Origin: Bacillota bacterium
Lineage (GTDB): Bacteria > Bacillota > Sulfobacillia > JABLXB01
NCBI GenBank assembly: GCA_013178305.1
Contig: JABLXB010000004.1
Span: 124,001 to 188,000, forward strand
DNA length: 64,000 bases
Direction: 5' to 3'
In this document: piece after piece, positions 3,657-7,862 of the stretch
Layout: every line of letters begins with the position of its first letter
Position numbering within the stretch: the first letter of the stretch is position 1
Made by a program: the position numbers and the translations under genes
The notes under the pieces: generated by a model
The model's input: the letters and a program-made list of their open reading frames with translations, nothing else
Told to the model about the DNA's origin: nothing
The model's database searches: none

Positions 3657-4742
3657 CTAGACGATCAGGTGGGCGTCGGACGCGGAGAAGCCTACGTGCA
3701 CGCGGCCGCCGCGATGGAGTGCCAGTGACTGGACGGCGCGCGGTCCAACGTGCGCCACGAGGATGAAACCACAATCGAGGGTCAGCCTGGCGCCGGTCGC
3801 AAGCGGTTCGATGTCCGTGATCCCGGCTGAGAACCGGTTGGCGGCGCCCTCCACCGGTTCCCGCGAACAGACCACGTTCTCGGGCCTTATGCACACGCAG
3901 ACTCTTGCGCCCTCGGGAGCGGGCCTGTCCGAGATCAGGGTAGCCCTATTCGCCGTCTCGCTTACCGAAACGAGACTGCCGCTGCCGTTGCGTCCAATTA
4001 CGAACCCGGGGATGAGGGTCTCGATGCCGACGAGCGAGGCGGCCTCGGCTGTGGCGGGACGGTTCCACACTTCCGTGGGGGTAGAGTCCTGGACTATGCG
4101 CCCGGAACTCATCACCGCGACCCTGTTGCACAGGTACAGCGCCTCGCTGATGTCGTGCGTCACGTAGACGGCCGTCACGCCGAGGTCCGACAGCACCCTG
4201 GCGAGATCGCGCTTGAACGATTGCCTGGTTGGGGCATCGAGATTTGCCATGGGTTCATCCAGGAAGAGCACCTCGGGGCCGGTGACGAGGGCCCGCGCGA
4301 GGCTGACCCTCTGCGCCTCGCCCCCTGACAGGGTGTCGACGTTGCGGCCGGCGAGATGGGTTATCCCCAGGATCTCGAGCGTTCGTTCGCACCGCGAGCG
4401 AACCTCCGCCGCTCCGGCCCCCCTCACACTCAGCCCATAGGAGATGTTGAACCGGACCGTCCCGCTGAAGAGCAGCGGCTCCTGAAACACCATGGCCATC
4501 TTTCGCCGCTGAGAGAGCCTTTCGGCCTCTGTGTCAAGACGGCGGCCTGCGAACAGCACATCCCCGCGGGACGGCTCTTCCAGGAGGCAAAGCAGCCGCA
4601 GAAGCGTGCTCTTGCCCGAGCCGTTCCTGCCGAGCAGCCCCAACACGTCGCCTTCCGCAATCCCAAGGTGGTCGACGTCTACCACGGTACGCCCGTCGTA
4701 GTCGCGGGCGAGGTCCACCGTCTCTATGAGCGGCCGGTCCAT
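3657..4742 (-). CDS. tupC: Tungstate ABC transporter ATPase
   Basis: ATPase of an oxyanion importer. Residues 1-230 form the ABC domain, with Walker A GRNGSGKST, signature LSGGEAQR, Walker B VLFLDEP and the H-loop VTHD. A C-terminal region of about 100 residues (IRPENVVCS, LDCGFILVAHVG) resembles the TOBE/MOP-type regulatory extension of ModC/WtpC proteins. The ATG at 4742 gives 361 residues and overlaps the end of tupB by 19 bases, indicating translational coupling. A longer frame upstream is out-of-frame reading through tupB. Tungstate rather than molybdate or sulfate is inferred from the adjacent TupA/TupB pair. Confidence 0.88.
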   Translation of the reverse strand: MDRPLIETVDLARDYDGRTVVDVDHLGIAEGDVLGLLGRNGSGKSTLLRLLCLLEEPSRGDVLFAGRRLDTEAERLSQRRKMAMVFQEPLLFSGTVRFNISYGLSVRGAGAAEVRSRCERTLEILGITHLAGRNVDTLSGGEAQRVSLARALVTGPEVLFLDEPMANLDAPTRQSFKRDLARVLSDLGVTAVYVTHDISEALYLCNRVAVMSSGRIVQDSTPTEVWNRPATAEAASLVGIETLIPGFVIGRNGSGSLVSVSETANRATLISDRPAPEGARVCVCIRPENVVCSREPVEGAANRFSAGITDIEPLATGARLTLDCGFILVAHVGPRAVQSLALHRGGRVHVGFSASDAHLIV

Positions 4743-5437
4743 CTCCTCGCCCCTTTCTGCTGGAGATTTGTCAGTACGGCGTTTACTCCGAAAGACAGTC
4801 CGAGAAGAAGGATGCCCAGCGCGAGAGCCATTTCGAAATGCCCCATCCTGCTCTCCAGCACCATGGCGGTGGTGAGCACCCGGGTTTGCCCCTTGATATT
4901 CCCGCCCACCATCATCACAGCGCCGACCTCGGATATCACGCCGCCGAAGCCGGCCATGATCGCTGCGAGCATCGGAAGCCTGGACTCCCTGACGAGCAGC
5001 ATCATCGATTGGATCTTGCTCGCGCCGAGCGCGAGGGATTGCAGCCTGAGCCTTGGATTGAGCTGTTGTATGGCGGCGAGCGAGAGCCCCGTAACGATGG
5101 GCAGCGCAATGCACACCTGGGCTATGATCATAACGCCGGGCGTGTACATCATCTCGAATTGCCCGAACGGGCCGCTGCGCCAGAACAGCATCGAGACGAT
5201 GAGACCCACGACAACCGGGGGCAACCCCATCCCCGTGTTCACGAGGCCGATCACGAGCCGCCTCCCCGGGAAATCGTTGAGGGCCAGGAGCACGCCCGCC
5301 GGGACTCCGAGCAGGATGGAAACGCAGGTAGCCGCCCCCGAAACCCTGAGGGACAGCCACGCAATCCCCACGACCTCGGGGTCGAGGCTAATGAGCAGCC
5401 TGATTGCCTCGACGATTGATTCCAGGATGGATGCCAA
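4724..5437 (-). CDS. tupB: Tungstate ABC transporter permease
   Basis: A 237-residue polytopic membrane protein with about five hydrophobic helices and the binding-protein-dependent permease EAA-like loop (LALGASKIQSMMLLVRES). The stretch GLPPVVVGLIVSMLFWRSGPFG and the short length are characteristic of TupB, not ModB. It lies between tupA and tupC in the same direction. A strong hairpin separates it from tupA. Confidence 0.9.
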   Translation of the reverse strand: MASILESIVEAIRLLISLDPEVVGIAWLSLRVSGAATCVSILLGVPAGVLLALNDFPGRRLVIGLVNTGMGLPPVVVGLIVSMLFWRSGPFGQFEMMYTPGVMIIAQVCIALPIVTGLSLAAIQQLNPRLRLQSLALGASKIQSMMLLVRESRLPMLAAIMAGFGGVISEVGAVMMVGGNIKGQTRVLTTAMVLESRMGHFEMALALGILLLGLSFGVNAVLTNLQQKGARRWTGRS

Positions 5438-5527: not shown

Positions 5528-6349
5528 CTACTTGCCCTGGGAAGCCGACGGGAAGAACAACGGCTGCCCGAACTTATCCTTTCCGTAATCCGCGATTATC
5601 TTCTGACCCTCGGCCGAGGTGATGAAGCCGGCGTAGGCCTTGGCGCCATCGGTGTTCTTCGCGCCCTTCACCTCGATTACACCATACGGGTTGAGGAGCG
5701 CCGGATCCTTCTCGACCAGGATCTCCAGGTCCAGGCCTTTCGTCGCGAGGTAGGTGCCACGGTCGGAAAGGGTATAGCCCTTCTTTTCGCTGGCTATCTT
5801 CAGGCTGGCGCCCATTCCCTGGCCCGTCGAAACGTACCAGGCGCCCTCGGGCTTGATCCCCGCCGCCTCCCAGAGCTGCTTCTCTTTCTGATGTGTTCCC
5901 GAATTGTCGCCGCGCGTGATGAACGTGCTATTCGAGCCGGCGATGGCGGCGAGTGCCGCTTTGGCTTCCTTGAGGCCCCTTATCTTCGCGGGGTCGTCTT
6001 TCGACCCGACCAGGACGAAGTCGTTGTACATCACGTCGAGGCGCCTCGTCCCGAACCCGTCCGCCATGAACTTGTCCTCGCTCTTGCGGGCGTGAACCAG
6101 GAGGACATCGGCCTCTTTCTTCTCGCCGAGCTTGAGCGCTTCCCCGGTGCCCACGGCGATGGTCTTGACCGTGTAAGGGAACTTCTTCTCAAAGGCGGGG
6201 TTGAGCACATCCAGAAGGCCTGTGTCTGCGGTGCTGGTGGTGGTGGCGAGCACAAGCGGCTTTCTCTCGACTGGTTTGCCGCAGCCCGCTACCGTCAGAA
6301 TGGTACCCAGGAGGGCAAAGGTGATCACGGCACTCGTACGCGACCTCAT
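5528..6349 (-). CDS. tupA: Tungstate-binding lipoprotein
   Basis: Periplasmic-type substrate-binding protein tethered as a lipoprotein. The ATG at 6349 gives a signal sequence with lipobox LTVAGC at about residue 22. The mature start ATTTSTADTGLLD is the TupA signature (T-T-S residues ligate the oxyanion), followed by the GDNSGTH motif. Length 273 matches the family. The protein captures tungstate (possibly also molybdate) outside the membrane and delivers it to TupBC for incorporation into pyranopterin cofactors. It is the first gene after the cofactor-sensing riboswitch. Confidence 0.93.
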   Translation of the reverse strand: MRSRTSAVITFALLGTILTVAGCGKPVERKPLVLATTTSTADTGLLDVLNPAFEKKFPYTVKTIAVGTGEALKLGEKKEADVLLVHARKSEDKFMADGFGTRRLDVMYNDFVLVGSKDDPAKIRGLKEAKAALAAIAGSNSTFITRGDNSGTHQKEKQLWEAAGIKPEGAWYVSTGQGMGASLKIASEKKGYTLSDRGTYLATKGLDLEILVEKDPALLNPYGVIEVKGAKNTDGAKAYAGFITSAEGQKIIADYGKDKFGQPLFFPSASQGK

Positions 6350-6417: not shown

Positions 6418-6455
6418 ACAACACAAAGGCCACCATCCTTCCCGCCATGGTGGCC
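6418..6455 (-). terminator. Riboswitch-associated terminator upstream of tupA
   Basis: Perfect nine-base stem, arms 6428-6436 and 6447-6455 (GGCCACCAT in the RNA), followed by TTTGTGTT on the minus strand. It sits between the riboswitch core and the tupA start and is the likely expression platform. Confidence 0.85.
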
Positions 6456-6619
6456 TCAGCCCGTCAATCCATGCTGACTTCCTTTCCAAACGCGGGAGGC
6501 GACACCGTTTCCGGCGGCGCCCTGTCAGTCGCGCCCCCTGGCGCCGGCCAAGAGCACACCGGCGCTGTAGGGGCTTTGACTCGGATAGTCATTCCGTGCC
6601 CTCTATGAGGTTGTCTCTG
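6418..6619 (-). promoter_or_regulatory. Moco/Tuco-family riboswitch
   Basis: The leader RNA contains the near-invariant strand CUCCCGCGUUUGGAAAGG (complement of 6481-6498), which differs at only a few bases from the corresponding strand of the E. coli moaA leader. It is preceded by a GC-rich hairpin capped by a GAAA tetraloop (6498-6521, the P3 arm), a variable GCGCCGG/CCGGCGC arm (6541-6565), and a surrounding CCCCU/AGGGG helix. A terminator follows the core, so ligand binding probably stops transcription of the tungstate transporter. The 5' boundary is approximate. Confidence 0.85.
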
Positions 6620-6625
6620 TCACGT

Positions 6626-6654
6626 ATTGTAATCGATGCCGAACGTCGAGTCAA
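6626..6654 (-). promoter_or_regulatory. Sigma-A promoter of the tupABC leader
   Basis: On the minus strand, TTGACT (6649-6654), 17-base spacer, TACAAT (6626-6631). It places the start of the leader RNA near 6619. Confidence 0.8.
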
Positions 6655-7018
6655 CGCTCGCAATGATCGGCTTAACGAACTGCATCGCCTCAGACTTCGT
6701 GATTTCCTTGGCCCACTCCCACGCAGAACGTAACGCAGTAGTACTAGGACAAGGAAGAAAGGGCCTGACGGCCTTGCTCACATCAGGGGGCCGGAAGAAT
6801 TTCCCTATATCGATGTCTGATTGTCGGGAGAGTTGGGGGCGCGGTGAGGTCGCTTCTCATCAGAGTAGCGGCGTAGGAACCCTGCAGGGCACCGCACGCG
6901 CATATTGTGGAATTCGCTCAACCACAATAGAATTGGTTCAGCAGGACAGCACATCCAATTTGCGCGCCGGAGGTCGAATGCGACGACCAGAGAGCAGTCC
7001 GCCAGTCCCGTCCAAAGG
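6655..7018. other. Non-coding gap with one inverted repeat
   Basis: I see no convincing gene in these 364 bases. The only clear structure is a perfect inverted repeat ATTGTGG-N11-CCACAAT at 6904-6928, about 90 bases before the antitoxin start, which could be an operator for the toxin-antitoxin unit. Confidence 0.4.
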
Positions 7019-7489
7019 GTGCTCAACAAAGTTCCTGCAATCGTCGAAATGCTCGGTCGCGACGATGACATACTATTCTGCTACCTTTTCGGCTCTGTCG
7101 CCAGGGGCACCGCAGGATCCCTGAGCGACCTGGATTTTGCGGTTTACCTGGACCCCCGGGTTCCTGCTGATCAGCGGTTTTACAGGGCCCTTGACATTGC
7201 GGCCAGGCTGTCATCCATTCTGCGAACCTCCAACGTTGACGTTGTGCCCTTGAATGATGCCTCGCCCGAGCTCGCGTATTCGGTGATTCGCGACGGCAAA
7301 CTCCTGTTCTGCAGGGACGAACTGCAGCGACAACGTTTTTGGGTCCGGATCGTCCTGGACTACTTGGATAGAGGATTCATGCGAGACCTTTTCTGGCGCT
7401 ACACTGCTAAGCGGGTTAAGGAGGGCTCCTTTGGTGGTAGACGAGAAGACCGTTCTCAGCTTGCTCCAGGAGCTCGAGAGACGACTTGA
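7019..7489 (+). CDS. mntA: MNT-domain nucleotidyltransferase antitoxin
   Basis: Minimal nucleotidyltransferase of about 156 residues. The catalytic signature is intact: GS, ten residues, then DLD (GSVARGTAGSLSDLD), with further acidic residues in VDVVPLND. In MntA-HepT systems this protein neutralises the HEPN toxin by adding AMP to it. The start is uncertain. GTG 7019 gives the usual short N-terminal helix before FGS. A TTG at 6905 is also in frame, but nothing family-like precedes 7019 and neither has a good ribosome-binding site. The 3' end overlaps the toxin gene by 59 bases. Confidence 0.85.
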   Translation: MLNKVPAIVEMLGRDDDILFCYLFGSVARGTAGSLSDLDFAVYLDPRVPADQRFYRALDIAARLSSILRTSNVDVVPLNDASPELAYSVIRDGKLLFCRDELQRQRFWVRIVLDYLDRGFMRDLFWRYTAKRVKEGSFGGRREDRSQLAPGARETT

Positions 7490-7862
7490 AAGGCTATACT
7501 CTCTTTCAAACACCAGCGTCAAAACGCTGGTGGAAGATGCCTCCATCAGGGACCAGGTTGAAAGGAACCTTGAGGTTGCCATCCAGTGCTGTATAGACCT
7601 GGGAACCCACCTCCTGGCCTCAATGGGAGGCCCCTCGCCCGAAAGCTACAGGGATGTGTTTGTCTCCCTGGGCAGCCTTGGGGTTATCGACGACACCCTC
7701 TCCGAGAGCCTCGCCAGGATGGCTGGGTTCCGGAACGTCCTTGTACACGGCTATCTAACACTGGACCCGCGCAGAATGCATGAGTCTCTTAATCGTATCT
7801 CAGACATCAGGGGCTTCGTAGAAGCAGTCGTGCATTATATCGAAGCGCAAAAAAAGGAGTAG
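7431..7862 (+). CDS. hepT: HEPN-domain toxin (HepT)
   Basis: A 143-residue all-helical HEPN protein. The Rx4-6H ribonuclease motif and the following Tyr are present (RNVLVHGY), as expected for an active HepT that cleaves RNA and is inactivated by AMPylation at that Tyr. The TTG at 7431 follows a strong AAGGAGGG by five bases. GTG 7434 is an alternative. The gene overlaps mntA, a typical toxin-antitoxin arrangement. Confidence 0.88.
   Translation: MVVDEKTVLSLLQELERRLERLYSLSNTSVKTLVEDASIRDQVERNLEVAIQCCIDLGTHLLASMGGPSPESYRDVFVSLGSLGVIDDTLSESLARMAGFRNVLVHGYLTLDPRRMHESLNRISDIRGFVEAVVHYIEAQKKE

Follow-up and report, generated by a model that had tools for sequence, protein, structure and literature searches.

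A P3-lacking Moco-family riboswitch as a putative tungsten-cofactor feedback OFF switch in the leader of a tupABC operon

Which form of the Moco riboswitch precedes the tungstate transporter operon tupABC in the window (the whole stretch of 64,000 nucleotides of DNA that was analysed), and which cofactor might it sense? In a proposal by Regulski et al. (2008, PMC2408646), Moco RNAs without the P3 arm would have the tungsten cofactor as their ligand. The initial annotation of this leader described a Moco-type riboswitch with a GAAA-capped P3-like hairpin, that is, a P3-bearing form in front of a tungsten importer. It also named a covariance search with the Moco family model as a check. This search (cmscan) yielded a full-length minus-strand match to RF01055 (Moco RNA), spanning 6598-6464 (model positions 1-135, 52.8 bits, E 8.8e-10), which exceeds the gathering score of 36 bits and bears out the assignment to the Moco type. 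No family besides RF01055 was matched in the Rfam scan of the 64-kb window.

The covariance alignment and the folds indicate that P1, P2, P4, P5 and the conserved core strands are all present in the window RNA, and folding the aptamer (6464-6598, minus strand) to its minimum free energy without constraints likewise results in P1, P2, P4 and P5. The closing stem P1 (6475-6591) comprises 8 pairs between 6591-6583 and 6482-6475, and its UGAC/GUCA element is preserved in both orthologous leaders (L053 and L057). The P2 arm, assigned by folding and alignment to the family consensus, extends from 6527 to 6581, the P4 hairpin from 6497 to 6522 with its GAAA loop at 6511-6508, and P5 from 6486 to 6495, all on the minus strand; the conserved Moco motif strand of the initial annotation was recovered as GCCUCCCGCGUUUGGAAAGG at 6500-6481. 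The covariance alignment leaves the P3 columns empty, and P2, which ends at 6527, is connected to P4, which starts at 6522, by a linker of 4 nucleotides (6523-6526) at the usual P3 site. Taken together, the covariance alignment and the unconstrained fold rule out a P3 arm in the window RNA. The GAAA-capped hairpin described previously is real, but the arm that carries it is P4; as in the published consensus (PMC2408646) the GNRA loop belongs to P4 and the receptor for it to P2, P4 had been mistaken for P3. The window RNA thus belongs to the P3-lacking (Tuco) group. As this is the form for which the 2008 proposal names the tungsten cofactor as ligand, its position before a tungsten importer no longer presents a contradiction.

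A sigma-70-like promoter (TTGACT-17-TACAAT, 10/12 consensus matches) is located at 6626-6654 on the minus strand, where one motif was found compared with 0.1 expected in shuffles. An intrinsic terminator at 6418-6455 (minus strand) is indicated by sequence, folds and orthologues, in agreement with the earlier description: the hairpin GGCCACCAU-N10-AUGGUGGCC (6455-6428), in which 6455-6447 pair with 6436-6428, is followed by the U-rich tail UUUGUGUUGU (6427-6418). The interval of 6418-6654 given by the initial annotation agrees well with the span from promoter to terminator. A terminator hairpin is found at the equivalent place in the L053 and L057 leaders, with the bases changed and the pairing kept. 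A simple terminator scan gave no match at the tupA leader, as its 10-nt loop and interrupted U-tract caused the hairpin to be overlooked, and it was recognised from folding and the orthologues.

When the transcript was folded to just before the 3′ arm of the terminator, P1 was lost and CCCGCGUUUGGAAAGGAAGUCAGC (6496-6473) paired with GCUGAGGCCACCAUGGCGGG (6460-6441), forming a predicted antiterminator (6441-6496, minus strand). The fold of the truncated transcript reached -77.1 kcal/mol compared with -66.1 kcal/mol when P1 was enforced, and in a longer leader the respective values were -81.1 and -70.3 kcal/mol. The strand 6460-6441 includes the 5′ arm of the terminator, and the predicted antiterminator is incompatible with both the aptamer closing stem and the terminator. 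Mutual exclusion of this kind is typical of OFF switches. In L053 we observed a similar alternative pairing, but the full leader of L057 folds straight to aptamer and terminator, so that the predicted switch is less evident in this orthologue. The folding model predicts that the window leader acts as an OFF switch with a transcription-termination platform. When the tungsten cofactor is scarce, the P5/P1-3′ strand (6496-6473) would pair with 6460-6441 and tupABC would be transcribed. When the cofactor is plentiful, its binding would stabilise P1 and P5 and free the 5′ arm of the terminator, so that transcription would stop before tupA, resulting in feedback repression.

Models for TupA, TupB and TupC support the position of the leader upstream of a tungstate-type ABC transporter, as had been described, with all three genes on the minus strand. 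The tupA gene (5528-6349) encodes a tungstate-binding protein of 273 aa, assigned by NF041772, 3lr1 and its site residues, and is preceded by the ribosome site AAAGGAG at 6367-6361. It is followed by tupB (4724-5437), a permease matching NF038017 with 254 bits and the TupB model with 155 bits, and by tupC (3657-4742), an ABC ATPase with a TOBE domain (PF00005 and TOBE_2). The best solved relative of the window TupA is the Geobacter tungstate-binding protein 3lr1 (E 1e-71), and the alignment with 3lr1 and 5my5 indicates that the oxyanion-binding residues of TupA, namely TTTS, Arg118, Thr124 and Asp170 (PMC5517513), are all kept. Of the two conditions that the initial annotation named as refuting it, neither occurred: the Moco model gives a hit, and TupA retains the residues of a tungstate site. 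Its sole NCBIfam match, NF041772 (tungstate-binding TupA), scored 220 bits and is below the equivalog cut-off of 400 bits, under which nine other TupA-like leader proteins that were scanned likewise fall. The protein is filed as TupA-like by its site residues and its operon, not as an NCBIfam equivalog. In a plasmid search for TupA, all matches were below 60% identity. Divergent from tupABC, at 6905-7862 on the plus strand, we observed a pair of genes for a nucleotidyltransferase (Polbeta, PF18765) and a HepT-like ribonuclease (PF01934), a candidate toxin-antitoxin system of the MNT/HEPN type.

The source genome (G000, 3.4 Mb) contains 20 AFOR_N matches, corresponding to about 19 genes of the aldehyde:ferredoxin-oxidoreductase (AFOR) family because two matches share one reading frame; these genes are distributed over the contigs C1, C2, C3, C4, C8 and C18. 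A search of this genome for ModA recognised no match. The presence of two PF00384 proteins and a single MoCoBD protein makes molybdenum use possible, and we make no claim of exclusive tungsten use. On contig C1 (503713-503562, 41.5 bits), the source genome carries another RF01055 copy, which bears P3 and lies upstream of a small ORF, moeA, a moeA with a periplasmic-binding-protein-like domain, moaA, moaC and a mog/moaB-like gene. The small ORF between this riboswitch and moeA (L004:9501-9313) encodes 62 aa ending in KITGCQLGCFKREI, and a Pfam search of it gave no match.

Does the P3 state then report the metal? We surveyed 167 candidate RF01055 RNAs among the matches listed from class and phylum relatives, collected by a script. 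The P3-classifying script missed 9 of 161 loci and admitted a few spurious entries (e.g. 9, 41, 43 and 47); one P3 assignment is doubtful (entry 50, L080), and the TupA cases were checked by eye. The lengths of the P2-P4 linker are bimodal, with at most 8 nucleotides in 72 RNAs and at least 16 in the others, save one spurious entry at 12. Among the matches listed, nine P3-lacking RNAs precede tupA (the window, L053, L057, L137, L140, L164, L186, L196 and L201), as do nine P3-bearing RNAs (L062, L063, L064, L067, L071, L073, L074, L077 and L078), the latter all from the class of the window. A TupA-led scan of named genomes added 15 P3-lacking and 3 P3-bearing leaders (L252, L271 and L273); L273 is L071 again by sequence, and without it 15 of the 17 further tupA leaders lack P3. 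In front of ModA genes, about 22 P3-bearing and 4 P3-lacking RNAs were found among the matches listed, and the ten ModA proteins that were checked all scored above the ModA cut-off. Over 61 transporter leaders, the ratio of P3-lacking to P3-bearing RNAs is 24:11 for tup compared with 4:22 for mod (Fisher p 6.6e-5, not corrected for phylogeny), where the pooled leaders represent non-independent lineages and many ModA cases stem from one family. The absence of P3 tracks tup over mod, and the trend noted in 2008 holds broadly, as a correlate and not as a rule.

A strict P3 rule is ruled out by exceptions in both directions, comprising tupA leaders that bear P3 as well as ModA and sulfite-oxidase-fold genes whose leaders lack it. 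P3-lacking RNAs before PF00174 (sulfite-oxidase-fold) genes were observed at L042, L046, L050, L052 and L055, opposite to the strict rule, and a similar exception was recorded for Syntrophomonas wolfei in 2008 (PMC2408646). In the TupA tree, the window protein falls into a clade with 100/99 support together with the proteins of L053 and L057, whose leaders lack P3, and of L062 and L067, whose leaders share the gene context of the window but bear P3; the tree calls for no fewer than three switches of P3 state overall, inside this clade as well. Genomes with P3-bearing tupA leaders could be regarded as plain molybdenum users, a notion that is unsupported, as they all contain AFOR genes (found in 20/20 genomes checked) and in five of them (G026, G045, G044, G057 and G015) the ModA search gave no match. 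The absence of P3 is not diagnostic of the metal. It is possible, though on the whole doubtful, that P3 is not what discriminates tungsten from molybdenum in the Moco family, as related TupAs with the same site motifs are led by either form. Among the later papers searched for work on P3 and metal choice, nothing went further than repeating the 2008 proposal.

Judged from the sequence, the locus combines a promoter, a P3-lacking aptamer, a terminator and a tungstate-type transporter in an AFOR-rich genome. We consider it probable that this P3-lacking Moco-family riboswitch in the tupABC leader is a feedback OFF switch for the tungsten cofactor. This cofactor is most likely the ligand, for which the regulated genes and the enzyme set of the organism argue more than the absence of P3.

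A less likely alternative is that the ligand of the P3-lacking RNA is the molybdenum cofactor, or that both cofactors are recognised. Any abundant pterin cofactor would then turn off the operon for the only recognised oxyanion importer of this type, and P3 would tune folding and not metal choice. The shifts of the P3 state on the TupA tree, the P3-lacking RNAs before sulfite-oxidase-fold and some ModA genes, and the MoCoBD protein of the source genome are consistent with this explanation, whereas the overall preference of P3-lacking RNAs for tup, their prevalence among the further tupA leaders of named genomes, and the unresponsiveness of the P3-bearing E. coli RNA to tungsten (PMC2408646) argue against it. 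Far less probable is that the RNA before tupA is a degenerate, non-functional relic of an aptamer and that either termination or read-through is constitutive. The interrupted U-tract, the imperfect P2 receptor and a bit score that is modest beside those of many relatives would fit such a relic; however, the aptamer core and the terminator are preserved across three genera (the window, L053 and L057), P1 has 8 pairs, and the predicted antiterminator falls exactly on the P5/P1-3′ strand. A P3-bearing, Moco-sensing RNA at this locus is practically excluded, since the GAAA hairpin that suggested it is P4 and the alignment with its gapped P3 columns and just 4 nucleotides of space already refutes it here, even though tupA leaders with P3 occur elsewhere in the class.

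The window locus is an ordinary, well-placed example of a P3-lacking Moco/Tuco riboswitch, a putative tungsten-cofactor switch that shares with the P3-lacking Tuco subgroup (PMC2408646) the core sequence, the arms P1, P2, P4 and P5, the GAAA loop on P4, the lack of P3, tungsten-related genes downstream and, as predicted by folding, a terminator platform. It differs from this subgroup by an enlarged P2 loop, a score of just 52.8 bits and an imperfect P2 receptor. In the alignment to the family consensus, the tetraloop-receptor site in P2 reads CCUACAG...CCAGG in place of CCUAAG...UAUGG in RF01055; it differs from the 11-nt consensus, to which the orthologues are closer, although the GAAA loop itself is present. 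The E. coli moaA Moco riboswitch belongs to the same aptamer family, but contains P3, precedes moaABCDE and employs a platform that hides the ribosome site (PMC2408646), whereas the window leader is predicted to use a terminator. Two other genera of the window's family (L053 and L057) likewise carry P3-lacking RNAs with terminators before tupABC.

In two relatives, TupAs that are about 65% identical to that of the window are led by P3-bearing RNAs with a changed core. This core, AAAC-GG...GCCCCCC in place of CAG-GG...GCCUCCC, involves the change of AG to AC before P4 and of CCUCCC to CCCCCC, and sets these RNAs apart from the window RNA in addition to P3. It is shared by L062 (5136-5001), L064 (301-446) and L067 (301-439), located directly before tupA, and by L068 (4236-4093), located directly before tupB, and the exact pattern occurs in 4 of 154 genomes of the class, at tup genes only. 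The joint changes suggest a separate variant aptamer. As matched tupA leaders with and without P3 exist, the 2008 proposal, in which P3 would tell RNAs that sense molybdenum from those that sense tungsten, is directly testable, and these pairs provide a natural contrast for it.

Further variation was observed among the relatives. The tupA leaders of L063, L071 and L074 (family f24) have a shortened P2 and a P4 with GCGA where the others have GAAA, and resemble the joint loss of loop and receptor reported in 2008 for GCAA forms (PMC2408646). Moreover, in three genomes of one family (L110:1501-1919, L128:3619-3213 and L173:101-518), a P3-lacking RNA (80-88 bits) is followed about 165 nt on by a P3-bearing RNA (66-68 bits), both located before a formate-dehydrogenase-like gene, a tandem that could possibly serve as a two-metal gate.
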